Assembly: GCA_035771165.1 (NCBI GenBank)
Contig: JAWNZC010000100.1
Location: forward strand, 3,964,501-4,028,500
Direction of reading: 5' to 3'
From: Paragorgia papillata
Lineage: Eukaryota; Cnidaria; Anthozoa; Scleralcyonacea; Coralliidae
Length of the DNA: 64,000 nucleotides
A model generated the notes under the pieces. That model was not told where the DNA came from. It ran no database searches and saw nothing but the letters and a program-made list of their open reading frames with translations. Position numbers and translations under genes: made by a program. Of this stretch, positions 5,161 through 47,725 are shown piece by piece (position 1 is the first letter of the stretch; every line of letters begins with the position of its first letter).

Positions 5161-5207
5161 GTTCTAGGCCGGCGGCTGTGGGTCAAAAACTAGCCTAGAA
5201 ATGAAGT

Positions 5208-10360: not shown

Positions 10361-10395
10361 AGGACGTTGACCCGGGTTCACGCCACGGGTGGGGG

Positions 10396-21559: not shown

Positions 21560-21991
21560 TTGAAAAAGACTGTTTGTGGTGGTAGTGACTGACGTTTCGA
21601 CAGCCTCAGCGGCGGTCATCTTCTATGTCACGATTGCGGTATGCGTGGAATCTGAGGTGGGCTTTGTCAGTGGAGGTGGGTGTTGTTTGTGGGTGGTGCT
21701 GTCAGTATTTGTTGGTCAGTGTTGGTGGGGGGGGGGGGGGGGGATTAAAAAAAAAATCTACTATTGTGTTTAGTTTGTCGGTGGTGTTCGGCAATGTGAT
21801 TAGTCCTGTCTCCGTTCTTTGCTGCCCGTTTGTGTTCAGCTAGTCTCGTTTTTAGGTTTCTGCCGGTTTCACCGATATACGTGGCCTGGCAGTCGGCGCA
21901 TTTAACCTTGCAAACTACACCTTGTCTGTCGTAAGGTTGTTCTTTGTCTTTAATGTTAGTCAGTACATTACGTAGAGTTGTAATTGGTCTG
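21560..21991 (-). mobile_element. Penelope-like element, 3' half with GIY-YIG endonuclease
   Basis: On the minus strand, an uninterrupted frame from 21991 to about 21757 reads TTLRNVLTNIKDKEQPYDRQ, GVVCKVKCADCQATYIGETG, then RNLKTRLAEHKRAAKNGDRT and NHIAEHHRQTKH. This is the GIY-YIG nuclease of Penelope-like elements, with the conserved Cys pair before YIGETGR, the catalytic Arg and AEH. It nicks DNA for target-primed reverse transcription. Downstream on the same strand (21620-21580) is GTCGAAACGTCAGTCAC in the layout seen at PLE ends. The frame is cut at 21983-21991, exactly where the upstream half at 47508 stops. The 3' untranslated region carries a G-run at 21727. Confidence 0.8.
21983..21991. 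repeat. Left 9-bp flank (target duplication) of the 25.5-kb insert
   Basis: ATTGGTCTG, identical to 47508-47516. Depending on where the element ends are drawn, the true duplication is between 5 and 9 bp. Confidence 0.75.
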
Positions 21992-21993
21992 TT

Positions 21994-22069
21994 AGCCTGC
22001 GTGCAGACTTCACCCGTTTCCGTTCCCCGAAGGGTAAAGTCTGCGCAACGGAGCCCGAAAGCTTGTTAT
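21994..22069 (+). repeat. Left terminal inverted repeat of the 25.5-kb insert
   Basis: Starts AGCCTGCGTGCAGACTTCAC and ends AAAGCTTGTTAT. It contains its own inverted pair (GCAGACTT ... AAGTCTGC), so each TIR can itself form a hairpin. Confidence 0.8.
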
Positions 22070-22149
22070 GCTGACTTAGTATTTCGCAACGCTATCCAGG
22101 CAAAACTTCCGGTTCGTTGGCGGCCATTTTTTATCGCCTAAAGGCCGGC

Positions 22150-22284
22150 ATGGCCGAATCTTGTGCCGTGTGTTCAGAGACGATTCGATTGTTAAATCCT
22201 GTGATAAAAATTTGGCAGGACGTTTTCTTTACCATCTCATGTCACTCACTACTAGACAGATTATACAATAACCCTTTTATTTAA
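22150..22284 (+). CDS. Exon-like frame with a CxxC motif just inside the left TIR
   Basis: From ATG 22150 the frame reads MAESCAVCSETIRLLNPVIK and then IWQ before probably non-coding codons to a TAA at 22284. CAVC resembles half of a zinc-binding pair. The start is 80 bp from the TIR edge, and a GC-rich GGCGGCCATTTT block precedes it, which would suit a promoter at the edge of a mobile element. I do not recognise the protein. The true exon end may be near CAG|GACG rather than at the stop. Confidence 0.35.
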   Translation: MAESCAVCSETIRLLNPVIKIWQDVFFTISCHSLLDRLYNNPFI

Positions 22285-24489
22285 TTTCTGACGTAACAAC
22301 CACAAACCACGCGATACGCACGATATATTATACTGCTAGAAATATCTTAACACAACAACCCCTCGCCCTCTTTTACACGAATTTTTGTAAAATTTATATC
22401 CTTCGGATAACCCCCTGATAAGAAAAACACCTTCGCGCTCTTTTTCATTGGGAGCCTGGAAATATCCGTTGGAACAATTCAAAATATAGTTTTAAACTTT
22501 TAATTAAAGTATAATATTTGAAATAAAAAAAGTTGTTTAACTCTAATGTTTAAAGAAAAAGGTAATAAATAACAAAGAAAATTTTCAAGACAATATTCAG
22601 AAAAAAAATTGAGATGAAGAAAAACGCAGGTCGCATCCACGGTTTGAACTCGACCATTCTGCGTGCAAACTGACGATGTCACCACCAGGCTACTGAAGCA
22701 AGCGTCGGAATATCAGTAAAATATTAGGGTTATATTTTACAGTTCTTTTTTTTTCATGTTCACAAATTACATTGCTAGATCATCTAAAAATATTTTGAAT
22801 TTTTCAAAGGCATTGGACATCTGCCTGGCTGCCACGGCTTTTTTCATTTTATGGCATTTCACATTCATTTAGAATAGCAAAAACAAATTTCGTCTAAAAA
22901 TCCTGAGTGTTAAAACTGTTTTCACCTGAAAAAATTGTTTTCATGCAGTCTTTTATATCTGTAATATTTCAACATGCAGCACTTGGCAGCATTTATATGT
23001 TTAACAGACGAAAAATTGCTCCTTCACCGATTTTTATGCCAAATTATAAACAAGCTACGCTAAGTTTTACAAGTGGTTTTACCAAAAGGAAATATTTAAA
23101 AGGAGATAAGACGGCAGCCAACAACGGGGCACGGGCATGCGAAAACATAACGGATACGTTACGTTTAAAATACTTTAAGGACACACGAAATCGAAAACAA
23201 AATTACTGTAACAGTGACAGAGAAACTCGAACAGCATTGCTACTAAAAGTTCGTGATTTAATACTGAAAGCGCCCGCTCTATAGTTTTACCGTAAGCTTA
23301 ACCTTTTCAGTCTTTTTCTTCGTTGGTTTTTCTCTCTTTCGAGTTTCGGTGTGACGGGTTTTCTTCAACTAAGGATGTTGTTCTGCTTTATACGTAGACG
23401 TTGATTTGTTTCTGTTCTTTCAAAAGTGATATACGTTTCCCAAAAGCTCCTTTCTCAAGTCTTTTTGTCAAGAATAAATTAAGTTGTTCAAATCTTGTTG
23501 TCAAGAACTATATTGTCCCCAGTGCCCCACAATCTTAACCGCGTATCGTCTGTCCACACATATATATATAAATAAATAAATAAATATTCAGATCACAGAA
23601 ATTCGTTCGGAAATCACGTTTGTCCACGCGTGTAAAACGACTCCACGCGTGTCGAGATTAGCACTCTCACCGGGCTGCGGGCCTTTCGCCCTACGCCCGG
23701 GCTCGGGGATAACGAAACGACATAATTAAACCTGTTTACGCCAACTATCGACATGGGATAGAGGAGCGAGAAATTCACCAATTTATAAAGCCGACCCGGA
23801 TGCCAGTACGTTACGGACTACACCAAAACTACACAGACATTCAGTAAGACTTTATTTCTATTTATAAACTTGTCTATTATACTTCAGTGTTACACGCGCC
23901 TTCTAACATCTGTATTTTCGTCTTAACATATTTACTGATCTCAACATCGACTCAAAATCGGCCCTCCTGAAGAAGACTGGAAAGTTGAAACGCGTCGAGG
24001 GTAATCCAAAGAACAAAGACCTACATAAATCCTTCCACGCTTCATTCTTCTCCCAAACATACATCAAACCGCAGGTATATTTTATGACCTATCGACTGAA
24101 ACTAGACACTTCACGTGAAACTTAACTGCTGTGGTAAAAAATGAGCGAAAAAAAACTGGCAAATTTATGAAACATACCACTAATAACAGTGCGTTGTAGC
24201 TGCTGTGGTGGAACACAAAGTATTATGCTCCAAATTAGTCCTCACACAAGTACAACGCGTTCCAAACAATTTTGAAAAATTCCAAAATAGTATTTTTCCG
24301 CAAAATTCAAAGAAAATAACCAAAATACTAAAATTATGTTTTCAAACAATGAAAAAAGGCTTTCTTTGCAAACAAATGCTCACACAATGTAATCGTTCGC
24401 GAAATCTCGTAAAAATAATAAATACTATAGGTTTGTATATAATAAGTATTATAGGGTTGTGGAAATCGAAATATAGTAAGGTTTGAGAA
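22285..24489. other. Mostly non-coding interior of the 25.5-kb insert
   Basis: A + frame at 22907-23284 (125 codons, Lys/Arg-rich) is unrecognised and may be chance. (AAAT)n lies at 23564-23588. 23940-24000 resembles retroelement ends (CTGAAGAAGACTGG ... GTTGAAACGCGTCGAGG). 24251-24287 (GTACAACGCGTTCCAAACAA...) is repeated inverted at about 46790-46826. Confidence 0.4.
22625..22705 (-). repeat. tRNA-derived SINE-like head
   Basis: On the minus strand TAGCCTGGTGGTGACATCG resembles an A box, and GGTCGAGTTCAAACC, about 30 bp later, is a near-canonical pol III B box. The tRNA cloverleaf is not complete, so a SINE head or tRNA pseudogene rather than a functional tRNA. Confidence 0.4.
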
Positions 24490-24504
24490 TTGCCGAAATT
24501 ATTG

Positions 24505-24595
24505 AACGTAGATTCTAACGTTTCGACCGAAAGCCCTTCGTCAGAGAGAAACGTTTCTTTCTGACGAAGGGCCTTCGCCCTATCCTTTCACTGTT
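24505..24595 (-). repeat. Retroelement terminal fragment with hammerhead-like core
   Basis: The minus strand reads CTGACGAAGGGCTTTCGGTC followed by GAAACGTTAGA; the + strand carries a second, inverted CTGACGAAGGGCC. The arrangement CUGANGA - stem II - GAAA is the hammerhead ribozyme core known from Penelope-like elements. Stem II pairing is poor here, so activity is doubtful. Confidence 0.35.
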
Positions 24596-24742
24596 TGCAA
24601 AATCTCACAAAAAATAATAAAGATTATAGGGTTGTCAAATTTTCTGACTACCCTATCCTTTCACTGTTTCCAAAATCGCAGAAAAATAATTAACATCATT
24701 ATGAACTTCCAACTACCTTATATTTGAAGTGCTTCTAAAATT

Positions 24743-24938
24743 ACAGTCGATTTCAGGTTACTTTTCACTGAAGTGTTCCGAAATTTTCTCCGACGTTTTA
24801 AACTATGCATTTAATTGGTTACTAGAAACTAAGTAGCCAATCAAATGTGTAGTTCACAATGAACCTGTGAACTGCGTAACAAACTAGTGAACTTGCTTCG
24901 GAATACTTCAGTGAAAAGTAACCTTAAATCGATTGTAA
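24743..24938. mobile_element. MITE with about 40-bp TIRs
   Basis: ACAGTCGATTTCAGGTTACT ... GAAGTGTTCCGAA at the left pairs with TTCGGAATACTTC ... CCTTAAATCGATTGT at the right. Non-coding. Confidence 0.65.
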
Positions 24939-25049
24939 GAAAAATTCACAAAAAAATTGACATTACAAAGTTGTTAGAATTTCTAACAACCCTAGCTATG
25001 ATTACATTAAGATTAATTAAAACTAGAATTTACATGCCGATTACATGTT

Positions 25050-28000
25050 TAGGGTAAATGTAACGGTGAAATTACGAGTGTTAACTATTTTTAAAACCAA
25101 TCAAAGAAGTTGCTAAAATTGCACCATTCAGAAGCAATTGACCCACTCATCCTGGGAAACTAGTTCAGCCCTGTTCAATAAGAAGGCCATGATAGTTTTG
25201 TTGCAGTAAGTAAGAGGTTTAGTTTCCCAGGGATTTTGATTGATTGTACCGATCGCGAGTAAGGTGACATCGACTCGCCCGTCATAGCGAGTACTCGCTT
25301 CGGCTCGTTACGCACGAGTACTCGCACTTCTAGCGAAACCAAACGTTGGCAAATACTCGCAACTCGCTAATCGCGAGCATTGCTAGTCAGTATCACCTAT
25401 AGGATCAGGAAACCACGGGACATTTATATGAAATAACTAATCAAAGCAATCAACTTTACTAACTGTAACAAATTAAAACGACGAAGGCTTATACAAGTTT
25501 TGTTAGACAGCATTTCAATACATGGCGACGGCTGTTATTGAAGTATAATATGCACTGTTATCGCGCGATGAACAACTGATCTAAGTTTGGCTTTAATCGA
25601 TGGAAATGATCGAGCAATCAAAGACAAGTTGTATGATGATATGATACATAGAAACAATTATTAAAGGCACGGCATTTCAATATACATCCATATGTTAAAG
25701 AATACTCGCAGTTTGTCATTAATGGCGTCGCTCCGTCGCTGACATTTACTTCCAGTTAAACATCCACATTAAATTTCCATAGTTGACATTTAGTGTGTAT
25801 CCAAATGTTTGTTTGATATGACGTTTTGTGGGAATTAACTATACAGTTGTATCCGCACTTGTTCTTGAGCAGTGTTTACGTTCTGCTTCAAAAATTATCG
25901 AAGCAACGGCGAGTGAGGTCATCGTTTGACTCGCAATAAGTGCATGGCTAGTAAGTTTTTCCGCGACTTTTTCCGTGCTGCGCGGCTTTACCTCATTTGA
26001 ATTGAGATGTGTCAAGTCGGCATGTAATATATTCATAACGTAGCACATTCATCACAACAGAATACCAAGCGATCAATTTCGTTTCAGAATTATAGCTGTG
26101 ACCCGAGCATTCGGTAAAACAAAGACTAGGTGAATCTATCACGCTGAAGCCGCAAAGCAATCACGTCAATATCATGTCAACATTTTAATAAATTCACCGA
26201 GTCTTTGTTTTACCGAATGCACGCGCTTTAAGATGGTCACAGCTATAATTCTGAAACGAAATTGATCGCTTGGTATTCTGTTGTGATGAACGTGCTACGG
26301 TAAAGCGGCGCCGCATGGAAAAAGTTGCGGAAAAATTTACTAGACATGCACTTATTGCATTATACTGCATATTGGTGGTTTATAAACGAGTTGTTGTCCG
26401 TTTTTCTTTTGATCAACGGGCATTCGTAATGCCTTTTTATATAAAATGCCATGTATTTCAAAATTGTTTTGGCTTTTTTTTCGCGAGCCAAACGATGACC
26501 TCATTCGCCGTTGCTTCGATAATTTTCGAAGCAGAACGTAAACACTGGATACAACTGTATAGCGTTTTGGTTAATTCCCGCAAAACTTCATAGCAAACGT
26601 TCATTTGAATACAGACTAAATGCCAACTATGGAAAATTAATATGGATGTTTAAGGCAACAATTTATTCAAATAAATTGCGGTTAATGCACAAACACTCTG
26701 CACGTGCGTCGTGCCCTCTGGGTGCCTGTAATCAGCTTTGGAGATAAGCCTCTTGAGCCTTTCATGCAACATACGTAACAAACCAAGTCCCCTCTGAGGA
26801 CAAAAATATACAGGTATAAAATGAATAGAATGCAAGATAAGTACTCGGTATTATCCCAGAGTTTTCCCCGTATTATTCCATATCATGACCCAGGTGCCTG
26901 GCACGCTCTATATTCACGTGTCGGTCCGAAAGTCCAGAGATATAGATTTAACTATCCAATCGCAAAACGCAAAGTATCCTTTCAATGAGCAAAGGTCATT
27001 TTGTGCACTACTTAAGCAGCCAAAACGCGCCAAAGATTATCAGTCTACTGGCAAGTGATCCAAAAACTAACACCCGCCCACCACTCCCTGCTAAAACAAA
27101 GCGATAAACATAAATGTGCAAAATATTAGGAAAGAAAAGGCAATCATTAGTTTTTCCCTTACAAAAACTATAAAGACATTTAGCTCTTGTGTTTGCCTAA
27201 AGACTTCGAAAATATGCATAGATTATAGGTAATGTGTATGTATTCAAAAACTACAAGTTGGAAATAAACTAAATATTGATTCAGGGAAGCGCTGTCCTCC
27301 GGACACCTCCTACCCCCACTGAAAAACTTAATCTGGCTCATTGCAAAGAAACGTGTCCTGAGCCACTTTTTCTCTCCCTCCCCTACACAGAGTAGCTGGG
27401 GTTCCGACTTCCGAGATCAACCCCAGCAGTCGGCGCTCCCGACTTGGGCACCCCCCTTGTTCTGTGGAGACTCATAGGCCTGGTATAATGTCACTTCAAA
27501 GCGGGTACACACTACCTAGCTTGATATTTACCAGCCAGAGGTTGGCACCCCCACCTCAACGTCTCAACGTCCAGATTTGTGTGATGCCACGATCATAGCT
27601 GCTGGACGATCTCCACAGCTAGGTATCCACACTTCTGGTCCCCCAGATGGATCCTTACCCCGACCCGGGCTTTGTGTCCGTCGGACTAGCTTTTCTCCTG
27701 CTTCCTTACTGCCAAATAAGTCTAGTAAGTCTTTTCTCTTCCTTTTTTCGGACCTCATGGTAGACAGAGGAGTGCAGTGCATTAACTGGAAGTAAAGTTT
27801 TGTGATTATTCGAAATCTATAATTTGGAAGACATGCATGTCAGCGACGGCGCGACGCCATTAACGACAAACTGTGAGTATTCTTTAACATATGGATGTAT
27901 ATTGAAATGCCGTGCCTTTAATAATTGTTTCTATGTATCATATCATCATACAACTTGTCTTTGATTGCTCTGTCACTTCCATCAATTGAAGTCAAACTTA

Positions 28001-28425
28001 GATTGTTCATAGCGCGATAACAGTGCATATTAATATACTTCAATAACAGCCATCGCCATCGGACGCTGAAATGTATTGAAATGCTGTCTAACGAAACTTG
28101 TATAATTTTTAATTTATTACGTCGTAAAGTTGATTGCTTTGATTAGCTCTTTCATATAAATGTCCCGTAGTTTCCTGAACCTATAGGTTATACTGACTCG
28201 CAATGCTCGCGAGTAGCGAGTATTTGCCAATGTTTGGTTTAGCTAGAAGTGCGAGTACTCGCGCGTAACGAGCCGAAGGGAGTACTCGCTATGACGCGCG
28301 AGTACTCGCTACTCGCGAGTCGATGTTACCTTACTCACGAGCGGCACTGTAGTCTCCCTACTGCGTTGTCTTACAAATAGTTGACACTCATAATTTCACC
28401 AACACACTTTCCCTATCTTAATGTT
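25050..28425. mobile_element. Large fold-back element, about 3.4 kb, with later insertions
   Basis: The left arm (about 25064-26130) pairs with the right arm (about 26200-28405). The outer pairing is 25250-25748 with 27835-28340: GAGTAAGGTGACATCG with CGATGTTACCTTACTC, then GCGAGTACTCGC repeats, then GGCACGGCATTTCAATATAC with its inverse. The inner pairing is 25745-26130 with 26200-26655: AGAATTATAGCTGTGACC with its near-inverse at 26235. The right arm is interrupted by an 1128-bp insert (26654-27781); the left arm by about 130 bp near 25095-25245. A short loop (about 26130-26200) remains. No transposase. Arms differ by many substitutions. Confidence 0.75.
26654..27781 (-). mobile_element. 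1.13-kb insert with TTAA duplication inside the palindrome
   Basis: TTAA at 26650-26653 and again at 27782-27785 flank a segment absent from the matching left arm (position about 25760). On the minus strand it begins TGCACTGCACTCC and soon opens a frame (27564-27753, MRSEKRKRKDLLDLFGSKEA) that I do not recognise. It could be the N-terminus of a transposon protein followed by deletion. TTAA duplications suggest piggyBac or Kolobok, but the ends do not show clear inverted repeats. Confidence 0.55.
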
Positions 28426-28734
28426 CTTAGGAAAATCTAATAAAAATAAGCTGATTACAGTACGGTGGACACTAAAATGTATGAATTTGTCAACAATGGC
28501 TAAAGAGTACTACTCTAGCAAGTATTGATATACTTATTCCTTCAGCAACACATTCGTTTTGGCTTCTGCGAGCAACAAACTGTTCATCCTCATTCCTAAC
28601 AAGGCATACCCCATTCCTCTCAAGGCCAGAAGCAGCAACAAATCCAGCAACTAAATAAAAGTGAAAAAAAGAGAGAAACACACATAAGAAACACATTTAC
28701 AATGTTATTAGTGAGTGATCAACCCTTCGCGGTT

Positions 28735-28830
28735 TGCAAATGCTACCCATTGGCACAGTGGTTAGCCAGACATCATCCTGACTGGGTCTCAATAGGGACT
28801 TTAAGATTCGCCGAGTACGGACTACGGACA
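28735..28830 (+). repeat. SINE-like fragment
   Basis: TTGGCACAGTGGTTAGCC resembles a pol III A box. GGGACTTTAAGATTCGC followed by TACGGACTACGG is repeated, inverted, at 42850-42885 next to another tRNA-like sequence. Both are probably copies of one dispersed family. Confidence 0.35.
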
Positions 28831-29074
28831 ACACAATTTCTCGGATAGGACTGGAAAGATTACTTCTGCGCATGTGTCTGAGTTTTACCGTCGTGAATCT
28901 GCTACGGTAAGTTTTCCAGAGATTTCTCGTAGTGTTGAGTACGTAAGGATTTCTCATCTATTTTAAATATTTGCATCAAGTTCTTGTTGAATGTCTAACT
29001 TTTACAATCTGTCAAGATTACTTTGGAACCAGTTTGAATTTATTTACATTTTTTTTTTCATTATATTTGTATAG

Positions 29075-29237
29075 GTAATAGCATGGCTTCGAGTGCAATT
29101 TGGGAAAAAACATGCACGAGTGAGTTTTTCAAAGACTATCAAATTAGCACGAGTCCGAAGGACGAGTGCTATTTGAGGTCTTTGAAAAACTCACGAGTGT
29201 ATGTTTTTCCAAATTGCACTCGAAGCCATGCTATTAC
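29075..29237. mobile_element. Near-perfect hairpin MITE
   Basis: GTAATAGCATGGCTTCGAGT at the left pairs with ACTCGAAGCCATGCTATTAC at the right. Arms of about 75 bp continue through GTGAGTTTTTCAAAGAC. The centre is CGAAGGACG. Few mismatches, so young or conserved. Ends about 5 bp before the left inverted repeat of the recombinase unit. Confidence 0.75.
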
Positions 29238-29242
29238 TTATT

Positions 29243-30941
29243 AATAATATACGTGAAAAAATTTAACAGGAAGTGATTCGCACGAGTCATGTGATAAAAT
29301 AATTTATTCAATCAACAAAATACATGCGCACTCGTGAACCGTGCAAGTGTTCTTGTCTCAAAATTAGATTCGAAAGGAACTGTTTCGTTATTTTAACACG
29401 TTTTTCAAGCCATAAACTGGCTAAACGATTAAAAAAAATGTTTAATCAGAGTCAGAATTACTTTCGATTATATGGAATCGCCGTTTCCTTGGTTGGTGGC
29501 TGGAGATGTGTTGTTGAGGTTGAATGTCACATTGCAGTTAGTGAAAGTATTCATCAGATTCTGGGCTTGAGAACTCGTCGTCGAATACTTAGACATGGTG
29601 CTGGCGATGGATGAACTGGCTAGTTGTTCATCTGCTGTGTTATTTCGTCTTGATATTGCCCAGGAAAGATGTCGTTGCTCTTCCTCATCTGCTTCGTCGT
29701 AGTCATCTAGTGACTGTATGTTCCTGTGGCCAGTAATCTTGGCGATGCCAGACCTTTCAAGATTTGCCTTTTTCAACTTGCCCACTACTGTTTTACGGGC
29801 ACTGTGGTTTGAAAATCGTTTATCACTAGCCTCAAGACTTGTGCCAGAGATGATATTTTTCATCATCGAGTTGATCTTGTTTACTCCCATCGGCTGGACT
29901 TTGTACCAAATTTGGTCGTCGGCTCGTCGGTTGGTTTTCACAGAGAGGTAAAATGGGCCAGTTTGTTGTAATTTCAGAGGCCTTCGGCTGACGTACTCCT
30001 GGAATAGAGCAACTGGACATCTTTCTCCTCCAGTCTGGAACATTCGGGTTGGAAATCTCTATGTTTGGAATTTAAGCCGCCTTGTCTGGTCTTCGTTGGC
30101 CCTTCTGTGTATTGTAGGAACTCGACGCCGTCGTCACCTTGAACAATACTGAAGTCTGCCATCTTCATTTCGTAATGCTCTTGCCTGCCCCGAAGACCAA
30201 AGTATTGGGTAAGTAACCACCATATTGTTTGCACGAGTGACTCAGGAGTTTTAGAGCCAAATTTGTCGGTCTTCCAGAGTATTTCTTCCTCCTCTCGCGA
30301 TAACTGTCGTGCTTTATTTGGTGGCTTGCCTCGGCCGCTTTGGCGTAGCAACTTAGCTTTTCCCTCTAAAACTTGCTTCGAAGTTGTAAACTCTCTGTCT
30401 CGTATGATGGAAAAGACATACCCCTTGTCCTTGAGATGTCTGTCAAGGGACGTCATCATTACTTTGAGGCTGTCTGGTTCGTAATCTTCGCCGTGTTTGT
30501 TTTTAACTTCAGCGTAAAAGCGCTCGAGCAAATTATTTAACTCCGCCGGCTCGTATTTCTCGATTTCATCTGGAATTCCCTTCTCAACACACCACTTTTT
30601 CCACACACTGAACCAAAACGACGTACTTTTGACCGTGTTTTCATTTTTAGAGCTATTCTTCAATTCCTGGATTGTGGTTTCTGTCGCCAAAGAAAATCTA
30701 CTTAAAACGCCGGCCATTGTTTTTGCTAGGAATTTGTTTGCTGTAATATTATTTGATTTTTCCGCTCCTAAGAGGTGTCATTTGATTGGCTTTTGTTGTC
30801 ATTTCATTGTTTTATGAGCCAATCAGAGCACTTTGTGTTCAAGAAATTTGCACTTTATTTCCTTTTTTCTGCACTGTATTTCCTTAAAATTGCACTGCTC
30901 TCAGCCAATCAGAATTGAGAAATTTTTTCATGTATATTATT
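29243..30941. mobile_element. Recombinase-bearing unit between short inverted repeats
   Basis: AATAATATACGTGAAAAAATT (29243-29263) is matched in inverted orientation at 30921-30941 with one mismatch. The only gene between them is the tyrosine-recombinase frame. Cryptons normally lack TIRs, so either the gene has been captured by a TIR element or the flanks are two separate MITE ends. The right flank near 30760-30900 has GCCAATCA-type words suitable for a promoter of the minus-strand gene. Confidence 0.45.
29468..30717 (-). pseudogene. Crypton/DUF3504-type tyrosine recombinase, one frameshift
   Basis: ATG at 30717 opens a 247-codon frame; a second frame (30043-29468, 191 codons) continues it after a one-base shift near 30040. 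The first part holds an N-terminal SAM-like region (FWFSVWKKWCVEKGI) and the first catalytic arginine in QYFGLRGRQEHYEM (R176 or R178). The second has HSAR (His80-x-x-Arg83 of that frame), ITGHRN (His106) and the nucleophile candidate Tyr115 in SLDDYDEA. The R..HxxR..H..Y set defines tyrosine recombinases, which cut and rejoin DNA through a 3'-phosphotyrosine. DUF3504/Crypton-derived proteins are widespread in cnidarians. All catalytic residues survive, so the single shift is the only obvious lesion; it might also be a sequencing error. The tail is Asn/Ser/Thr-rich. Confidence 0.8.
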
Positions 30942-31476
30942 ATGGCAGATAAACGAACCTGTAGCTGTGTGTGTCAAAAGGAGATTTTATAGCGCGAAAT
31001 AATAAGGAAGTTTAATAAGTTGTTTTTGTCATGAGCCCAAATTATGACAGGCTTCTTTTTACTTTCTAGGATTTCAATAATTTTACTCATATATTGGTAC
31101 ACTGTAGATGATATTTAACATCTTTTGAATTTTTACAGTGTTTTAATATTTTTGACTTGGTGTATTTAATAATAACTTATTAAAAAAATTCAAATAGCAT
31201 ATAATAATAAAGGCACGACTTAAATTACCTTGTGTACACTAGTTTCAACTATTCTAGTATATGCAAATTATCCGTGATAAAATGGTTGATAACTGTTATT
31301 CCTTTATTGTTTCCAGTAAAAATTCAGATCTATGCACTCAATCTTGTATAATTTCAGTTCTACGTTAAAGTAATTAAGTCTGTAACTTTAATTAAGCCTA
31401 AACTACCTTAAATCAGGTTTCTTCATGTTTGTAAACACTGTATTTTCTGAGTTAAAAATTGCTATATTATTTTTAG
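30942..31476. other. Non-coding, probably intron of the Myb/SANT-like gene
   Basis: AT-rich with no frame. It ends in a pyrimidine-rich acceptor (TTATTTTTAG at 31476) before the Myb/SANT-like coding sequence. Confidence 0.4.
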
Positions 31477-31653
31477 TGGTTCATTCCGTTGGGATGATGC
31501 AAAAGACACGAATCTTCTTACAGAAGTGAGAGTCATTGAACCATATTTACATAAAACAGGCAGTAAAGAAGCAGGCTAAAAGTGGACCACAATATCTGCA
31601 AACCTAAGCTCTCATAATGGATTTAATGACAGCCCAAGAGACCAGCGTAGTCA

Positions 31654-32047
31654 AGGCTCAAAATAACGGCCAAATTTTTAATGTGACCGATCAAATTTGT
31701 ATAACGCCGGTCATTTTGACCGGTCATATTAATTTTAATACTTCCATTTGAAGGAACTTAAAATGATTGTTTTGTACTGTTATAGACCCGTTTCATAATG
31801 TCTGATATATATTGTAGTGAACTACGCATGCATTTCCTTTTTATGACAAACGTTCATATCAGCACTAGCTTATATATATAGCGTAGAATATACTTTACAT
31901 GTGGGGGTTTTTTGTGTTGTGTTTGTTTTTTGTTGGGGGTTTGTTTGGTTGTTTTTTTGGTGTTTTTCTTTGTGTTTTTTTTTGTTGGTTTATTTATTTA
32001 TTTTTTTTGGGGGGGGGGCGTAACATGAAACGTTATTTTGAGCCTTG
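31654..32047. mobile_element. Short TIR element inside the Myb/SANT-like exon
   Basis: CAAGGCTCAAAATAACGG at 31654 pairs with CGTTATTTTGAGCCTTG ending at 32047. The left flank ends GTAGT; once the BEL element at 32050 is removed, the right flank also reads GTAGT, which suggests a 5-bp duplication. It contains T/G-rich low complexity (31899-32018) and no gene. Confidence 0.6.
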
Positions 32048-32049
32048 GT

Positions 32050-32590
32050 TGTTACGGCTAGCTTTCGATTTTGGCGACTCTATAACAGCCAGTATTGATC
32101 GATGCTATCACTCTTAATAATAATAATAATATACATTTATATAGCGCTATTTCTAAGAGGTACCCAATAGCGCTTTACATAAATAGAAGACCTAAGTAAA
32201 TTATATAAATATTAGAATCTATTACATTAAGTAAAGTTACCGATTATTAATTAAGGGTCAACAAAAGCTCGATTAAAGAGAAATGTCTTAACTGTTGTCT
32301 TAAAAATGCCTAATGATGTAATACATCTAGCTAATGTCTTCTGGGAAGTTGTTCCAAAGCGTTGGTGGCAACTCTTGGCACGTACGCTCTAATATCGATT
32401 GACGTGTACGGTTCGATGTTCCTTTAATGCCATTTAACATGAAATAAACGTTTATAAAGAGCGTACAACTTTTAACTCTTGACCAAGGTACAACCTTGTT
32501 CCGACTGTAGCGTGCTTTATCGCGCGCGCGGCCTTATGAGTAAAACAGGTAGCCTAAGAAAACTAGTGGCAGTTTGCACTACCACCTACA
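32050..32590 (-). repeat. 3' LTR of BEL element 2, interrupted by a LINE
   Basis: Positions 32050-32115 and 32371-32590 together match the 280-bp LTR at 39298-39577. The 255-bp LINE tail plus a 6-bp duplication account exactly for the extra 261 bp. Confidence 0.9.
32116..32370 (-). mobile_element. 5'-truncated LINE 3' end inserted in the LTR
   Basis: Inverse of the 3' part of the LINE at 17260-17516, including the (ATT)n tail (32116-32132), AGCGCTATTTCTAAGAGG and the last reverse transcriptase codons. It is flanked by ACTCTT at 32110-32115 and 32371-32376, a target duplication that dates it after the BEL element. Confidence 0.9.
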
Positions 32591-32750
32591 TGGCTCCCCT
32601 AAAATAGTTAACAACTATTTTACATTTAATTAACATCTATTAATATCAACTGTTCTTACGACTGAATAAATGTCTCTTAATATAACTGTTCTAAGATTGT
32701 TCCCTTTAACTGTTCGTCCGCATTTCACACGTGGCTCTCCGTCTGGGACT

Positions 32751-38911: not shown

Positions 38912-39297
38912 AGCAGTTTTTCGATCGTTCTTCGTTTTATCTACTGTATATTGCTTACCTTTCTCTGTAGGTACTTTCTTTCGGGCTCCGTCTTCGGTGT
39001 TTTCGTTGTATTCGGGTCTTGGGATTCGGGTCTTAGGATTCCTGTGGTTCGATCATCCGCTGCACTTCCTTTGTCTGGTCTCGCAGGCGCATTATCCTTT
39101 GCCAACGTAGCCAAAACATTTATTCCTTCGATTTCCAAGTCAGAGAGTTCTTTTCCAGCTTCCTTTCCGTAATCCTTAGCACTTTCTGGCATTTGTAGAG
39201 CTCCTGCACTTTCTTGGAAATCCTATAGGCCGGCGTTGGAATCTTCCAAGGTTTGTTGTTCTTCCATATTGTCGCCAAAGACAATCTAAGGTCGTAC

Positions 39298-39577
39298 TGT
39301 TACCGCTAGCTTTCGATTTTGGCGATTCTATCACAGCCAGTAATGATTGATGCTATCACACTTGGCACGTACACTCTAATATCGATTGACGTGTACGGTT
39401 CGATGTTCCTTTAATGCCATTTGACATGAAATAAACGTTTATAAAGAGCGTACCACTTTTAACTCTTGACCAAGGTACGACCTTGTCCCGACTGTAGCGT
39501 GCTTCATCGCGCGCGCGGCCTTATGGGTAAAACAGGTAGCCTAAGAAAACTAGTGGGAGTTTGCACTACCACCTACA
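39298..39577 (-). repeat. 5' LTR of BEL element 2
   Basis: 280 bp, TGTTACCGC ... CACCTACA. About 15 substitutions relative to 32050-32590 once the LINE is removed. It includes a CpG-rich GCGCGCGCGG block. Confidence 0.9.
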
Positions 39578-40191
39578 CTGGTAGTGTACGTGAAAGGTTT
39601 AATAAGCTTCTAAATGATTTTAAGGATAAAACTAGAGCAGAGTTGGCTGGCTCTGGAATTGCACCAGATCCATTGACAGAGAATGAAACATTATGAGAAG
39701 TAATTGTGGAAATTATGAAAAATGTAGATTTTGGGCACGCTTCTGCCAGCAAAATTTCACAAAATAAAGAGAGAGAGATGGCACTTAAACTCAGAGATCA
39801 AGCTATGATGACATGGAGCAAAACACAGAAGGAAAGTTCAGATGTGCTATGTTGTGAATCTGATGACTCAGATTCCAAAAGCAATACAACCCATGTAAAG
39901 AAAAGGAAGAGAAGAAGTGGTGCTGATGCCTTAGAGTACCTTCAGCAAAAAAGGTCTGTTGATGCAGAAATTAGAAGAGAGGAGTTGGCCTTTCGCAAAG
40001 AGCAAGTTGAAGTTGAACAACAAAAGCAGGAACAGTTACTAGAGCAATCCAAGCAACAAATGCAGTATATACAGGAGCAGGCTACTCTACAACAGCAACA
40101 ATTTAATGTGATGCAGCAGTAAATGCAACAACAGATGCAACTGCAAAGTAAAACTATGATGGCATTGGTTGAAAGGCTTGGTAAACAATAA

Positions 40192-40530
40192 GAGAAAACT
40201 TGCTAAATATAACTACCTTTGCAAGTATATGTTAAAGTTAATGTGTGAAAGACATTCATTTAGTTATCAGAACTGATCATTACATTTTGTAAAAAGAGAA
40301 TTTTTAAACATACGGGTGCACTGTTTGAACTTATCATGAGCCCGCATTACATAAAACTTTTGTATTTAAATAAAATGTTAGCAAATGTTAACTTGTTACA
40401 GTATGTCAATAAAGATAACATATTTGTATGTTTCTCAAAACTTGTAACTAATTATGTATTTTAGATTGGAAAAAGAATGTTACAAAAAAATGAAATGAAA
40501 TGTTTTACACACAAAGTAAAAACAGACTAA
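40192..40530. other. Non-coding, Harbinger intergenic
   Basis: Follows the Myb/SANT-like frame. Contains AATAAA-type signals near 40368 and 40406. Nothing else recognised. Confidence 0.4.
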
Positions 40531-40641
40531 GACCCGGTTTACACTAAAGCAAAAGTATCCGGATTCACATTGTTTTTTATTCCCATGAGAGGATGAAAAA
40601 CAGTGTGAATCCGGATACTTTTGCTCTAATGTAAAGGGGCC
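40531..40641. mobile_element. Harbinger-type hairpin MITE
   Basis: GACCCGGTTTACACTAAAGC ... AAAGTATCCGGATTCACA pairs with TGTGAATCCGGATACTTT ... GCTCTAATGTAAAGGGGCC. It is flanked by TAA at 40528-40530 and 40642-40644. A 3-bp TWA duplication is the Harbinger signature. It lies between the Myb/SANT-like and transposase genes. Confidence 0.7.
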
Positions 40642-40644
40642 TAA

Positions 40645-41106
40645 GAGTGTCCCATACTCCTATTCTGGGCAGTACTCCCATATATCAGGTTTACAGAGAT
40701 GTGCCGCTTGACAAGGTCTGCTTTTTGCCATTTTTAGTCTGGAACAGGATCTGGCTTTTTTATAATGCCAGGTATTTAGTCTGGCTCAAGGAATATTTTT
40801 CTTTCTTAAGGGTACAATTTTTTTGCCATTTTGTCAGAAACAGAGCTGCCAAAATATGCAATTTCTCAGTCTGGAACGTTGGTCAGAGTTTCCGATGTAT
40901 TGTAGGGATTCTGTGCTACACCTCTAACCTGGATTCTAGGGAGTACCGCCCTTGAGTCTCCTATACTCTATAGGGCAAGTGTACTGTAGTTACAATGTGA
41001 GTTACACTTTATCAGTTCTAGAAAAATTATTTATTTACTACATGTAACTAAAGTTTGCTTCAGATGCAATCATGCATGCAAAAAAGTTTGAATTATTCAC
41101 TCAAAG
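40645..41106. other. Non-coding stretch
   Basis: An open + frame at 40647-40955 has no recognisable similarity. Nothing else seen. Confidence 0.4.
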
Positions 41107-41557
41107 CAGTGGCGTAGCCAGGGTCTTGGGTTGGAGGGCAAGAACCTCAATCTCCTAGGGGGGTCCCCCAGAAAATATTTGCACGTATTTAAGAGAAATC
41201 TGAAAGCCATAAATAACATAATTTTGTTGGTATCAAACCAGAACATAGAATGATACATGTCAGAATATCTTTAGATTTCTTTATAAACAAGTCGTAAATG
41301 TAAAAACAAGTTGGAGGTGTTTTGTATAGACCCTTAGTATTGTAATTTATAGCATATGCATGCCTGCTATATATATAACACATTACTAGGCTTCTCACTT
41401 GGCCTTAAAGCAACTGTAACCCCCCCCCCCCACCCCCACCCCCTACAAGTTTCTCCATGGATTTAAACTTTTCATGAGAACGGTCTTGGAGACCATTGGG
41501 GGGGGAATCACCCTCACCTCCCCTACCCCCTCCCCGCCCCCCCTTGGCTACTGGCAC
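41107..41557. mobile_element. hAT-like MITE, degraded
   Basis: The left end CAGTGGCGTAGCCAGG is a common hAT MITE terminus; the right end CCTTGGCTACTGGCAC is its imperfect inverse. C- and G-runs inside. I do not see a clean 8-bp duplication, so boundaries are approximate. Confidence 0.45.
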
Positions 41558-41635
41558 AATAAAAAAAGCTATGCAAAGTAATTTTGTAGTGTTGGGGGAT
41601 CAACTTGAAAAAATTTTGAGGTACTGTTGCCATAA

Positions 41636-42735
41636 TTATAAGCAGGTGATAGCATTTCTCATCAACGCACCGACTATGTATTGTTTTCCCACCGCACTCA
41701 TTCCAATTCTCAAGTTGTTCTTCTGGTCAATAAATTAAAAATAATCTGAAACATCGCCAAAAAGCCACTCAACAGACACACGAAGCCTGCTCATTGCTCT
41801 GTTGAAATTCCTCATGTTTTGATTAAGAATAGGATCGTCACCTTGGTGGTAAGGGCACATGAGTTGTGGACGAAGAGGGTATGCTAAGTCTCCATAAAGG
41901 CAAAGGGTGTTCCCTGCTAGATCTAGTGCATTCAATTGAAGTGCAGTTAATAGATTTGAGCCAGCTAGCATGCCAGTGTCATGTCGTCTACCTTCAACTG
42001 GACCATACAAGTTGGCTATCAGCCCATTGGGAATTGCCACTGACTGAAACTTTAGGTTATGAACGCGCTTATGGCCATTATATACAATTCTCTGATTTTT
42101 ACCAGGACGTGCTATGGGACGAACAGTGCCGTCAAGAAAGCGAAAACAATTGGCAAGAGGGCATCCCATTCTTGTAATTGCTTGGCAATAACGTTCCAAA
42201 AACACTGGGGAAAGAAAATCTTGGTTCCATGAAGTTAAACGATGGCCATGTGAATCGTAAAACTAAAACCAGTCTAAGACAACATTGCTTAGCATACATA
42301 ACTCTGGAACAGGTCTGGCAAACCTGTGAATTAAATCGAAGTATCGGCATGGGTATGCAAGGCGTTTTAGAAGAATACAAAGGCCTTCTGTTCCACTACA
42401 GATCGTACCTTGAGGACATGTAAACTTGTCTGGAAATTGCAAGGCTAATGCCAAACCTGGAATATCTTCTTTTGCCACTCTAAATTCAGTAAGACATTCG
42501 CTTGTATCGAGTTCGTCGAGGCAAAATGAATCGTACTCCCAGTAGGGGTGGCATGGATTTTCAGACCAAAAATTCGAATAAAGAATAGCCGTCGAGGCAA
42601 AATGAATCGTACTCCCAGTAGGGGCGGCATGGATTTTCAGACTAAAAATTCAAGTAAAGAATAGCATTCTTCTTCATTTATCACTCCATCAGCCAAACAA
42701 AAGATTAGGTTGACTCTAACATGTTTAAAAGACAT
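41636..42735 (-). pseudogene. PIF/Harbinger transposase (DDE), broken
   Basis: From ATG 42735: MSFKHVRVNLIFCLADGVIN, EEECYSLLEFL, stop, then YWEYDSFCLDELDTSECLTE, FRVAKEDIPGLALALQFPDK, CSGTEGLCILLKRLAYPCRY, RFARPVPELCMLSNVVLDWF. A frame change near 42200-42260 leads to FLERYCQAITRMGCPLANCF, RFLDGTVRPIARPGKNQRIV, YNGHKRVHNLKFQSVAIPNG and GPVEGRRHDTGMLAGS, with LYGDLAYPLRPQL and VSVEWLFGDVSDYF. A TAA follows, then FIDQKNNLRIGMSAVGKQYI to the end at 41636. This is the HARBI1-like DDE nuclease (DDE_Tnp_4): catalytic D in FLDGT, D in YGDLAYP, E in SVEWLFGD. Lesions: a 76-bp tandem duplication (not a multiple of 3), one frameshift and one in-frame stop. Confidence 0.85.
42515..42666. repeat. 76-bp tandem duplication in the transposase
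   Basis: GTCGAGGCAAAATGAATCGT at 42515 recurs at 42591 and the two copies differ at only a few bases. It duplicates the codons for HPYWEYDSFCLD and shifts the frame. Confidence 0.85.
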
Positions 42736-42849
42736 GATTTCCAATATTTGACTACTGACAACAGTGTTGTCAGTGGTCAAATCTTAATGCGAATTTTGGC
42801 GCGCCCCAGTACACCAGACATAGTGTGTATCCCGGTCGACCGTAGTCGT

Positions 42850-42950
42850 AGTCCGTAGTCAGCGAATCTTAAAGTCCCTAATAGCTCAGTGATTACGGTG
42901 CCAATGTGTTCATTTGGAGACCTTGGACACGATTCCCAGTTGGGGCAGTA
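42850..42950 (+). repeat. tRNA-like SINE fragment
   Basis: TAGCTCAGTGATTACGG resembles a pol III A box, and ACACGATTCCCAG about 40 bp later a degenerate B box. It is preceded by GCGAATCTTAAAGTCCC, shared inverted with 28795-28820. Confidence 0.4.
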
Positions 42951-43571
42951 TTTATATTATTACCAATACACATTAGGTTTGGCCATAAACCAACAATAAA
43001 TATTTGCAATACAGAAGGCTAAAAAATACCTTGTGGAAAATTTATATCTAGTACCCATTCACCTGTGTGACTAAACAGATCCACCAGTTTCTTGCATGCT
43101 TCGATGTCAAAGTATTCAGTTTCACAGAAATGTGATTCTCAACCACCATGCTTTGTTCAAAGTTGAAGTGTGCCGGTAATATGCGCTGGCCAACAGCAGC
43201 ATGATATACTAAAAATCCACTGACCGATTCGACCATTCCTGTAATGTTACCTTTAAAACAAAGAGAATACCACAAATAAAACTTACAGGTAATAAACATA
43301 GAAACAATGTCTGCAAAAACATACTGTATGTAATATAAACATTGTGACGGAATGAACTATATGGGATTTACAAGGCGATATGGCCATTGTAAATTTACAT
43401 AAATATGTATATGTTTCCCAATTATTTTAGGAATTCAAAACTATTTTAGCTGAGTAGATTGAAGGAAATATTTATGCAAACCACAGCGATTCTGAATTCA
43501 GTTGATGAATGCTCCTCAAAAATAGATTTCCTTTGTTTTCTACAATGAATTATTTATGAGTCCCACAAGTA
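42951..43571. other. Non-coding stretch
   Basis: Nothing recognised. A minus-strand frame at 43048-43299 is unclassified. Confidence 0.4.
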
Positions 43572-43716
43572 TAGACCCCTTTCATGCATAAATTAAAAGG
43601 GCCAATTTGGAGGGCAAAACAAAATAATTTTCATAAATTATTCAATCTGTTGAAAGTCGGAACTTTTGAAGTTGTCCTCTAAATTGGTTGTTTAATTTAT
43701 GCATGCAAGGGGTCTA
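43572..43716. mobile_element. TA-flanked hairpin MITE
   Basis: TAGACCCCTTTCATGCATAA pairs with TTATGCATGCAAGGGGTCTA. Inner arms CCAATTTGGAGG and CCTCTAAATTGG also pair. The TA ends suggest a Tc1/mariner-like family. Confidence 0.65.
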
Positions 43717-43911
43717 TTATTGTACTTGTTTGTTGACAATTTGACTTCCAGATCTCTCCCTCAGTTAAATTATATTATATTTCAAAATAATAAGTACTTA
43801 TTTGATGGGACTGAGTAATATGAAGTGTTATACAGTGTTATACATAATAGTTCAGAGATGTCTATCGATTAACTTATAATGTGATTTATAATTATTTTAT
43901 CATTCTATTAG

Positions 43912-44807
43912 ATAAGGGAAACTTTTTACCAGTTGGCCATACCCGTGAAGATATTGATGCACTATTTGGGTGCTATTCAAAGCATCTTAAATTACAGGAT
44001 ATTTATACAGTTGATGGTTAGTTCTGTGGAACATGATTTGTTTATATAAAGTATGTTTGTACTTTTTGCTTTCTACTATCAACATCAAAACTCTATTTCA
44101 AGACTACACTAACCAAGATGATCAGATTTCAACATCTATTGATATTCCTAGATTGGTATACAAGATGTATAGAGTGACAATTGTTTAAAATAAAAAATTG
44201 TACAGTTCTAAATAAGACATACCCTATATATTATATATATATAGGGTACGTCTTATTTAGAACTATATATATATATTAATAGTTTTAATTGATGACTGTC
44301 CCTGTTACATTATAGATCTTTATAAGGATTTTGAACAGGCCACTGTTCGAAACAAGATGTACAACATTAAAGAATGGTTAGTAAGTATGATTGAGAAAAC
44401 TGATGATATATTTTTATTATTATTTACCTTTTAGATTTACACTGGTCCATACCAGCCATTAGCTGCTCGAGGTATCCAACAAGATGACAAATATCTTGGT
44501 GCACTAGCTCCTTGTGTGTTTGTAGCAGTAAATATAAGTAATTACAAAAAAATGCCAGTTGTTGGAAAGGTGCTTGAGGTTTGTGACAATGATTTTAAAA
44601 TACATTATTGGAAAGGTTCATATGCAAAGGCTTGGCAACCACACATGGTAAAGCGCATTAAAACGAATCAATGCCTAAGATTGATGACTTACCTGAACAG
44701 TCAGTCATCTTGTGTGCTTTTGAGCTTGATGAAAACAACAAACTCTATGAAAATAGCAGAAAGTTTTTAAAGCGTTGGTATCGAGATGAAGCAAAAAAGA
44801 ATGTTTA
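43912..44807 (+). pseudogene. Three exons of a protein with a VGHTREDID motif
   Basis: Exon A (43912-44016): after acceptor ATTAG, DKGNFLPVGHTREDIDALFG, CYSKHLKLQDIYTVD, donor GTTAGT. Exon B (44316-44380): DLYKDFEQATVRNKMYNIKE, WL, donor GTAAGT. Exon C (44435-44807): IYTGPYQPLAARGIQQDDKY, VGKVLEVCDNDFKIHYWKGS, YAKAWQPHMVKRIKT, then after a one-base shift near 44660 MPKIDDLPEQSVILCAFELD and KFLKRWYRDEAKKNV, stop. FLPVGHTHEDID..F recurs in large proteins common in transposon-rich invertebrate genomes; I believe this region is annotated as DUF7869, from memory. Upstream exons are absent. The HTHED motif suggests a nuclease-like metal site, which is inference. Confidence 0.5.
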
Positions 44808-45470
44808 ATTTGAACATGGCATAAAAATGATTTTACCCTTTATGTTGGCACTATAAGTCTATAACTGTATTTTATAGTTTATTGATGACTTATGCATGAG
44901 TTTATTCCATTTCCAAGTGCGATCATCCACCACCCACGGGCATTTGAGACAAACCAATATTTGAGTATGACAAGAAAGACATTTGAAAAGCTGTTTTGCC
45001 GATCATTTTTCAACTTCTTGTACCTACTAATTGGCTATTTATGTTTTCCACCCACATAGTGAGGCATTTGACCAAATATTTTTGAGAAAGCTAAATTTTC
45101 GGGGTTGGCCAGTGGGATGATTGCAGTTGAAATTGAATCATAGTTAAGATGTATATATTCATCTACAGTAACATATATACTGTAGTACGTATTAGACACC
45201 AATTAGCAATTCTATATTGTATTATATTAAATACTTACGAGTTTAACGTTATCGACCTCACTTCCAACGCCTTTAGCGATCGAAAAACTTGTTTCTCCAC
45301 GCCCAAGGTAGCAAATTCTCGAGCCCATAGCGGCTCTAGACATTGGCCGGCGGCTTTGAATACAAAGCTTAAGTACTTCATATTATTCGATATACAAGGC
45401 CTTTTTAAGGTCATTAGTTCAAAGAACATTTTGAGGGGATTATATTCATAGAGAGCTTGTTACTGAGAGA
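44808..45470. other. Non-coding stretch
   Basis: A minus-strand frame at 45235-45429 (MFFELMTLKRPCISN) is unrecognised. Nothing else seen. Confidence 0.4.
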
Positions 45471-45477
45471 ATTGCGG

Positions 45478-45810
45478 ATGTCAGAATTTCTGACAACCCT
45501 ATCTTGACAGTTCGCATTTTTTGACGTAGATTATTCTGCTGATCTCTATAGGATTGTCAGAATTTCTGACAACCCTATCTTGACAGTTCGCATTTTTTGA
45601 CGTAGATTATTCTGCTGATCTCTATAGGGTTATCAGAATTTCTGACAACCCTATCTTGACAGTTCGCATTTTTTGACGTAGATTATTCTGCTGATCTCTA
45701 TAGGGTTGTCAGAAATTCTGACAACTCTATCTTGACAGTTCGCATTTTTTGACGTAGATTATTCTGTTGAACGCTATACGGTTGACGAAATTTCTGACAA
45801 CCGTATCTTT
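45478..45810. repeat. 76-bp tandem satellite, about four copies
   Basis: ATCTTGACAGTTCGC recurs at 45501, 45577, 45653 and 45729, exactly 76 bp apart; a degenerate fifth start is at about 45805. Each unit contains a palindrome TTGTCAGAA-N-TTCTGACAA (9-bp arms). Related single palindromes occur near 24628 and 24975. Confidence 0.85.
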
Positions 45811-45937
45811 GTAGAAAGTTAACTGGATTTGTTCAGTATTGTCAAATGATTTTCGTAAGGTCATACAAATTTATAGTAATTATGGTTTTCCGATCTTGTC
45901 TAATTCTTTGCTTTGAAAGCAATTTACGATATTCTGT

Positions 45938-46430
45938 GAATAATTCCTTTTAGCATATACCTCGCAGGTGAATAGTGCTTTTCAAGCAATCTGATTGGTT
46001 CCTCTAGCTCGGCATATCCTGCACTATTCACCTGCGGGCAAAACAAAATGGCGGACAGTTTTCCTTTGTTTACCGAAGCAGGAGATTTTGTTGATAAACA
46101 AGGGTGATGTAGTAGAATAACGAGAAAAGTCAACAAAATTAAGTAGAAGAGTGTCCACAGGTATGTTTCTTTACAATTTTCTAGCCATTAATATATTCAA
46201 AAGCTGTAAAAACTGTTTTGTCGACAAATAATTGAGTACACCGAGTTGCTGGCGGCCGACGGCGACAGCCGTGTCTTGTTTATACTCTTGTATACAAATA
46301 CCGAAAAATATAAGAATGTTAAACTTGTTATTTCATTTATGAGGTATATGCTAAAACAATTATTCACCTCAGTGTCGGTGAATAGTGTGGATATTCACCT
46401 CCACTTCGGTGAATAATTGTTAAATATTAG
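45938..46430. mobile_element. TIR element with TTCACC ends
   Basis: TTTTAGCATATACCTC (45948) is inverted at about 46341 (GAGGTATATGCTAAAA). Several GGTGAATA/TATTCACC words lie near both ends. It contains a ATTGGTTCC / CACTATTCACCTGC promoter-like patch but no gene. Confidence 0.5.
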
Positions 46431-46900
46431 TTAAAAAACAGTTGTTTTGCTATAGATTGTTCTACATGTTTAGTAGTTTACAAAATACGACAAAGAAACT
46501 AAACATACGCATTTCATTTTGCATGTTATCGATATTTTTATTGGTTTAGGAGCAAAACCGAAAGAAGTTCTCACAAAATGTGTAAAATCGTTGGGAATTA
46601 ATACCAGTAACCTAACTAGATCTTTCACTATAGGAAAGTATGCGAACGTAATTTTAATAAAATTTTGCACGAAACGGTCTTTTTTAGTCCAAAAATTCTT
46701 ATAAATTACGTTTAGTTTGAAATATATTAATATTTTGCAAACGATTTCGGTAAATTCCGCAAAATTGGGCAAATTCTACTAAAAATCAGCTCTTTGGAAT
46801 TTCTCAAAATTGTTTGGAACGCGTTGTACACAACGCCAGTGAAGGTCTCATTACCCACCATTTATATAAAAAGTGCTTAAGCATTAAGCAATGCGCTTCA
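46431..46900. other. Non-coding, inside right part of the 25.5-kb insert
   Basis: AT-rich. About 46790-46826 is the inverse of 24251-24287. No gene. Confidence 0.4.
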
Positions 46901-47291
46901 TCAACAGCCTTCGTCCTGTTCCTTGTAAATTGCGGCTGCGTTGATCACACGTTCGTTCAAATAGTTAACTTCATCAAACATTAGCGATTGTAATGGGCTA
47001 ATCACTAGCAAAATAGCAAAATGCTTGCCCCTGAAGCTGTTTCTAGTAGAACATCGGCGATGATCGGGATTGATTGAAAGTGACTTGAAACACAAGCGAT
47101 TTCCCATATTAGCTTGTCGGTGCGCTAAAGTAAATATTCTTCCCCTGAAAGAAATTACGCAACGCCTGGACCTGCTCTGGGTACATCTTATGAACATTGT
47201 AGTAATAGCATGCCAATTTTAATGCTTCCTGGAAGTTTTCTTCGCTGAAGAATTCATTCAAACCACTGAGACCTCCGAACGAAAACGCCAT
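46901..47291 (-). pseudogene. RecQ-like helicase N-terminal remnant beside the right TIR
   Basis: ATG at 47291 (140 bp inside the TIR) opens MAFSFGGLSGLNEFFSEENF, ALKLACYYYNVHKMYPEQVQ, ALRNFFQGKNIYFSAPTS, a TAA, then YGKSLVFQ. This is the helicase motif 0/I region with a stop within the Walker A loop (PTxxGKS). A frame change follows, then LVISPLQSLMFDEVNYLNER and AAAIYKEQDEGC, matching motif Ia (SPLxSLMxDQVxxL...EQDE) of cnidarian RecQ-like proteins. It parallels the gene at 51531, whose ATG context is also preceded by ATTGGCT. Motifs II-VI are missing. It reads inward from the right TIR, as a cargo gene of the insert would. Confidence 0.65.
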
Positions 47292-47431
47292 TTTTGAATA
47301 CAGCAATGCTGTCAACAACGCGTGTTTATTTCCGGCGCTGTTGTTAGCCAATAGATGAATGATCCAAAAAAACTTGGAATAACATTTCATTGGGCGAGAA
47401 ACAATAAGAAATGTAATCCAATTTACTGCCG

Positions 47432-47507
47432 ATAACAAGCTTTCGGGCTCCGTTGCGCAGACTTTACCCTCCGGGGAATGGAAACGGGGGAAGTCTGCAC
47501 GCATGCT
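47432..47507 (-). repeat. Right terminal inverted repeat of the 25.5-kb insert
   Basis: Inverse of 21994-22069 with four differences in 76 bp. It is followed immediately by ATTGGTCTG (47508-47516). Confidence 0.8.
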
Positions 47508-47725
47508 ATTGGTCTGTGTGCTACGCGAATGTTGTAAGGTCGTAGGATACGCGAGATAATCTCCGACGTACCTTTGATGTAAGGTATCGTTGCTGTAACA
47601 GTTGTTTTATCGTCCGCTACGTTAGGTTCGTTGTTTTTGAAAACGTTGCGTTTGATGAAGACCGGGCTGTAGTTGCTTTTGTACAAAACACTTTTCGTTC
47701 TGTGTATTGATGTTTGTAATTGCAA
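47508..47725 (-). mobile_element. Penelope-like element, upstream half (end of reverse transcriptase region)
   Basis: Minus-strand frame TVTATIPYIKGTSEIISRIL followed by RPYNIRVAHRPI. The block (I/L)PYIKG-x-SE-x(2)-x-RIL...xxxV is the conserved segment between reverse transcriptase and GIY-YIG in Penelope-like elements. It stops exactly at the 9-bp flank, where the frame resumes at 21991. Upstream of residue ~45 of this frame I see no RT palm, so the element was already 5'-truncated. Confidence 0.75.

Follow-up and report, generated by a model that had tools for sequence, protein, structure and literature searches.

The stretch analysed here, a window of 64,000 nucleotides from the cnidarian Paragorgia papillata (GenBank assembly GCA_035771165.1, contig JAWNZC010000100.1, positions 3,964,501 to 4,028,500 of the forward strand; coordinates below are those of the window), contains an insert of about 25.5 kb (21993-47508) that is bounded by terminal inverted repeats (TIRs) and interrupts a Penelope-like element (PLE). 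Next to its right TIR the insert carries the remains of a RecQ-type helicase gene, and most of its length is enclosed by a second inverted pair that contains several other transposable elements (Table 1). Below we describe the ends and the target of this outer insert, its probable affiliation with the AcademH lineage of DNA transposons, and its nested contents.

Ends of the insert and the interrupted Penelope-like element

The two TIRs differ by 4 mismatches in 77 bp (94.8% identity), possess symmetric termini (TAGC...GCTA) and are each followed on the outside by the target-site duplication (TSD) TTGGTCTGT. Since a 10-mer, ATTGGTCTGT, is common to both flanks, TSD lengths of 9 and 10 bp are not separable with certainty. 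A preliminary description of this DNA, made from the sequence alone, had reported 76-bp TIRs with four differences; the repeats are real and the number of mismatches is correct, but each outer end had been placed one base short. The identical flank ATTGGTCTG that it had noted is present on both sides, and the symmetric termini make the duplication TTGGTCTGT. The left TIR folds somewhat better than shuffled sequences (z -2.3; 1 of 200 shuffles was equally good), and its inner dyad may, as a guess, be a candidate protein-binding dyad. A search of viral contigs for the TIR core gave 0 matches.

When the two flanks are joined, they form one minus-strand Penelope-like frame (...PYNIRVAHRPI/TTLRNVLTNIKD...), in which the protein comprising the linker and the GIY-YIG region is continuous over the reconstructed empty site. 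A protein search with the joined 135 residues identified 732 proteins below the threshold, the best of them 77% identical over 99% of the query. Counts at the junction rest on the 120 that were listed: all 120 span it, and within 10 residues of it the alignment is ungapped in 117 and gapped in 3. The one listed homologue with a source name comes from Porites lobata, a coral. The fact that listed homologues cross the junction, nearly all without a gap, is strong evidence that a single PLE copy was cut, as the preliminary description had proposed. Judged by its sequence, this copy is a truncated fragment: the matching proteins extend to 47761 on the right side, while on the left they mostly end at 21763-21781 (21670 in one case), so that the copy lacks most of the C-terminal portion present in P0001. 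Many of the matches also extend slightly into the ends of the outer element.

The pairing of TIRs with a duplication was evaluated by scanning the window for exact repeats, spaced 200-30000 apart, whose adjoining inner sequences agree in inverted orientation at 17 or more of 20 positions; satellites at 53.7-60.6 kb were masked, low-complexity arms and any word occurring at over 60 places were excluded, and 5 shuffled sequences, with bases permuted inside 200-bp blocks, served as controls. At 9 bp the single pair detected outside the masked satellites is the outer TIR/TSD pair, and no 9-bp pair appeared in any of the 5 shuffles. The scan also returned 3 pairs at 10 bp, those listed being palindromic words within longer inverted repeats, 8 pairs at 8 bp, 1 at 7 bp (the outer insert), 20 at 6 bp and 2 at 5 bp (one of them the outer insert). 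Among 38466 positions compared at the spacing of the outer TSD, the only matches are the two overlapping 9-mers of ATTGGTCTGT. Chance or an assembly artefact could in principle have juxtaposed two PLE fragments of separate origin with oppositely oriented copies of a dispersed repeat, and other repeats in the window do form long-distance inverted pairs (I1, I4, I17, I20); yet the 9-bp duplication is exact at the two outer ends, the scan contains no second 9-bp pair, and 117 of the 120 listed uninterrupted homologues align over the junction without a gap, which makes this explanation scarcely credible. Large satellite arrays are located at 57166-60546 and 55245-56510, with 12-bp (TCTTGTCTTGCA) and 5-bp (TATTG and kin) units.

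Table 1. Features of the insert and of its flanks, in window coordinates
Feature	Position	Strand	Remarks
3' part of interrupted PLE, linker and GIY-YIG region	21763-21992	-	
Left TSD, TTGGTCTGT	21984-21992		10-mer ATTGGTCTGT begins at 21983
Left TIR	21993-22069	+	77 bp; carries inner dyad GCAGACTT...AAGTCTGC
Left outer arm	22070-24249		no recognisable coding domain (six-frame Pfam scans)
Left inverted repeat of inner element	24250-24286	+	37 bp, 1 mismatch; ACAA immediately before
Foldback (long inverted-repeat) insertion	25246-28347 (about)		weaker arms to 25050 and 28415
PIF/Harbinger-like element	28793-42880		34-bp inverted repeats 28793-28826 / 42847-42880, 2 mismatches
DUF3504 / QRICH1 / Phage_integrase (tyrosine-recombinase-like) gene	29471-30774	-	Pfam; two overlapping frames
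Bel/Pao long terminal repeat (LTR) retrotransposon, in Harbinger-like span	32050-39577	-	LTRs 32050-32590 / 39298-39577
3' fragment like a long interspersed nuclear element (LINE), in left Bel/Pao LTR	32115-32370	-	ACTCTT each side; 95% identical to 17256-17504
DDE_Tnp_4 open reading frame (ORF) of Harbinger-like element	41738-42259	-	Pfam
DUF7869 protein fragment	43920-44015	+	related protein sequence at 44414-44815
76-bp tandem array, palindromic core	45479-45809		near right end of inner element
Right inverted repeat of inner element	46793-46829	-	ACAA immediately after
Broken RecQ-type helicase, N-terminus	46885-47291	-	ATG at 47291; stop, frame changes, internal deletion
Right TIR	47432-47508	-	77 bp
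Right TSD, TTGGTCTGT	47509-47517		
Preceding segment of interrupted PLE	47509-47719	-	single matches extend to 47761

The helicase gene and the affiliation of the outer element

The ATG of the helicase gene lies about 140 bp inward of the right TIR, and the gene is read inward. Compared to its homologues it has lost the residues that lie between EQDE and AVDEAHC. Among 23 candidates we found 7 protein homologues at 51-57% identity, which match back to the right end of the insert, and a tblastn match (E 1.2e-13) links the gene with a RecQ-like ORF elsewhere in the window (51510-52094). With its pieces joined by X, the translation scores 27.0 bits for the Pfam domain DEAD (cut-off 26). A pattern search for relatives yielded 38 stretches in viral contigs, with 0 confirmed, and 44 in genome contigs, with 4 confirmed at a best-segment identity of 25-38%; these four records, which we take to be archaeal, were not used further. 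In the joined translation no RecQ motif could be recognised by eye on the left side of the inner element, so that this element need not lie inside the helicase gene. Further RecQ-type helicase pieces occur outside the insert, at 51510-52620 (+), with Pfam DEAD and Helicase_C domains at 51510-52617, and at 62190-64000, partly arranged as a foldback. Around these outside pieces the scan detected no 9-bp TIR pair; one 10-bp pair (62633/63169) is a palindromic word in the foldback.

The preliminary description, in which the helicase was missed, had named Mutator, P and hAT as families with comparable ends. The RecQ-type helicase beside the right TIR, together with the 9-bp duplication, favours AcademH instead. 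RecQ helicases occur in Academ (PMC3627910), and the AcademH lineage (covered in PMC10045372 and PMC10799480) encodes a helicase and generates TSDs of 9 or 10 bp, as opposed to 3 or 4 bp in AcademX (PMC10045372). The outer element resembles AcademH in its 9-bp duplication and in the presence of a RecQ-type helicase gene within the TIRs, and differs in that it has no preserved transposase and in that its helicase is reduced to an N-terminal wreck. Another point of likeness is the host range, as animals are reportedly among the hosts of AcademH, to judge by the title of a paper by Kojima from 2020. We consider it likely that the outer boundary represents one insertion of a helicase-bearing DNA transposon, most probably from the AcademH lineage of the Academ superfamily, into a truncated PLE, with a 9-bp TSD. 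The outer insert is thus probably a decayed copy of a known lineage, and its membership in AcademH is likely but not proven.

Several observations weigh against this assignment. The comparison with published AcademH features covers TSD length and the helicase, at this one locus. The helicase is an N-terminal fragment only, its unjoined frames give no Pfam match, the joined pieces pass the cut-off by just 1 bit, and the matches in PDB are weak (Bloom, the best, E 0.018; Werner, E 0.095). Pfam recognised no remnant of an Academ transposase, in a search that had no Academ reference and concerned a largely deleted element. Finally, the 9-bp duplication and the long TIRs are also features of Mutator-like elements (MULE/MuDR, Rehavkus).

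Six-frame Pfam scans covered 22070-25051 and 42882-47511 (E up to 1) as well as 25052-29472, 30775-32052 and 39578-41740 (E up to 0.1). They detected no transposase of the outer element, in agreement with the preliminary description; the other parts of the insert were scanned as chosen ORFs, so that pieces in other frames could escape. The MULE transposase domain gave no match in the six-frame scans either, although decay or deletion could hide one. Rfam searches returned nothing at the gathering score, and no tRNA was found with the bacterial-code setting.

The outer element could alternatively be a non-autonomous Mutator-like element, the helicase piece having been captured or having inserted on its own. 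Its TSD and TIR length fall within the range compiled for MULEs (TIRs of 14-500 bp, TSDs of 9 or 9-11 bp in many rows; PMC6446971), and fungal MuDR-type elements without the MuDR transposase have 9-bp TSDs (PMC3627910). We regard this possibility as unlikely, given that no MULE domain was found in the scanned frames, that the word "helicase" is absent from the main text of the same MULE survey (PMC6446971), and that the inward-reading helicase, with its start some 140 bp away from the TIR, is placed like the element's own gene. Helicases of the RecQ type are also known from KolobokH and from one rhodophyte Kolobok (PMC9587614), and there is no preserved transposase to decide the matter. However, the TSD of Kolobok, including KolobokH, is the 4-bp TTAA, and KolobokH is reported from fungi only (PMC9587614), whereas the duplication found here, TTGGTCTGT, is 9 bp long and is not TTAA. 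An origin from a KolobokH-like or another helicase-bearing group, or from an undescribed superfamily with 9-bp TSDs, accordingly appears highly improbable, and AcademH remains our preferred assignment.

Nested contents of the insert

The inner inverted pair (36 of 37 positions identical) encloses 22,580 bp and is probably a nested element; after removal of this block and its 4-bp repeat, the outer element measures 2,932 bp. Containment is about six deep, from the PLE through the outer, inner, Harbinger-like and Bel/Pao elements to the LINE fragment. If its ends are taken as 28794 and 42879, the Harbinger-like element is flanked by AAT on each side. Members of PIF/Harbinger create 3-bp duplications (PMC2213677), and our element agrees with this group in its DDE_Tnp_4 domain, its inverted repeats and its 3-bp flanking repeat, the 3-bp match being weak evidence if taken alone. 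A reservation about this nested arrangement is that the ACAA of the inner element and the AAT of the Harbinger-like element could match by chance, with frequencies of about 1 in 256 and 1 in 64. Because the pair scan skipped words in more than 60 places, its empty results at 3 and 4 bp are uninformative on these two elements.

The Bel/Pao element is flanked by TTGGT and CTGGT (1 mismatch in 5 bp), and its LTRs are 90.9% identical over 66 bp and 95.9% over 220 bp. Between them Peptidase_A17, DUF1759 and DUF5641 score above the Pfam cut-off, with RVT_1 and rve just or well below it. Both the Harbinger-like and the Bel/Pao parts are ordinary, decayed members of their groups, distinct from the outer element. 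Elsewhere in the window (4095-10669), direct repeats some 275 bp in length, 6.3 kb apart and with 91.7% identity, enclose ORFs that by eye resemble a second Bel/Pao-type element. The ORF at 16628-17504 (+) gives no Pfam match but by eye resembles the C-terminal portion of a LINE reverse transcriptase; its 3' tail is found again, inverted, at 32115-32370 within the left Bel/Pao LTR. The DUF7869-related fragments (43920-44815, +) have 2 homologues; the domain itself scores 25.5 bits in the whole frame, just below the cut-off of 26, rising to 32.5 bits when a short piece is scored, and in the literature searched we found no mention of its name. A motif related to the 76-bp array is present at 24625-24657, near the left end of the inner element.

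Probable history of the locus

The preliminary description envisaged one mobilisation event carried in a large element that was later swollen by nested insertions. Nested insertions have indeed swelled the insert, but a large mobilised element is unsupported, because about 22.6 of the 25.5 kb sit within the second inverted pair, with its own 4-bp repeat and further bounded elements. Most of the present 25.5 kb is therefore probably not part of the outer element. A real giant transposon of 25 kb that moved together with everything it now contains would fit the intact outer TIRs and TSD around the whole span, and the Bel/Pao LTRs and the TIR pair (94.8% identity) have diverged to a similar extent, which makes the ages not separable. 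Against it stand the four interior insertions with their own ends and flanking repeats (one repeat imperfect) and the 22,580 bp that belong to the inner inverted pair alone, and we regard it as very improbable. Improbable, too, is the broader proposition that the locus holds either a giant AcademH-type transposon mobilising about 25 kb, with the DUF3504 tyrosine recombinase and the Harbinger transposase as cargo, or a member of a novel superfamily that carries a helicase and generates 9-bp duplications.

Under the AcademH assignment, and by analogy with known elements, a DDD/E transposase of the Academ type, supplied by this copy before its decay or by another copy, would bind the TIRs, and the element would be excised and reinserted by a staggered cut with a 9-bp stagger, with the RecQ-type helicase as a partner. 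The element that jumped would probably have been about 3 kb as preserved, internally deleted already or later, and some 22.6 kb would have been added stepwise by the inner inverted-repeat element, the foldback, the Harbinger-like element, the Bel/Pao element and the LINE fragment. We infer that the nested load arrived after the insertion into the PLE, although LTRs and TIRs resemble each other too closely in divergence to order the inner block relative to this insertion. With its helicase broken and its transposase unrecognisable, the outer copy is most likely dead.

The locus thus appears to be a well-preserved, largely ordinary transposon nest. In it the empty site of a probable AcademH insertion can be reconstructed cleanly, with intact TIRs, a 9-bp duplication and a continuous target frame. 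It also illustrates that a transposon of roughly 3 kb can pass for one of 25 kb, and that nested elements must be subtracted from TIR-bounded spans before a giant transposon is called.

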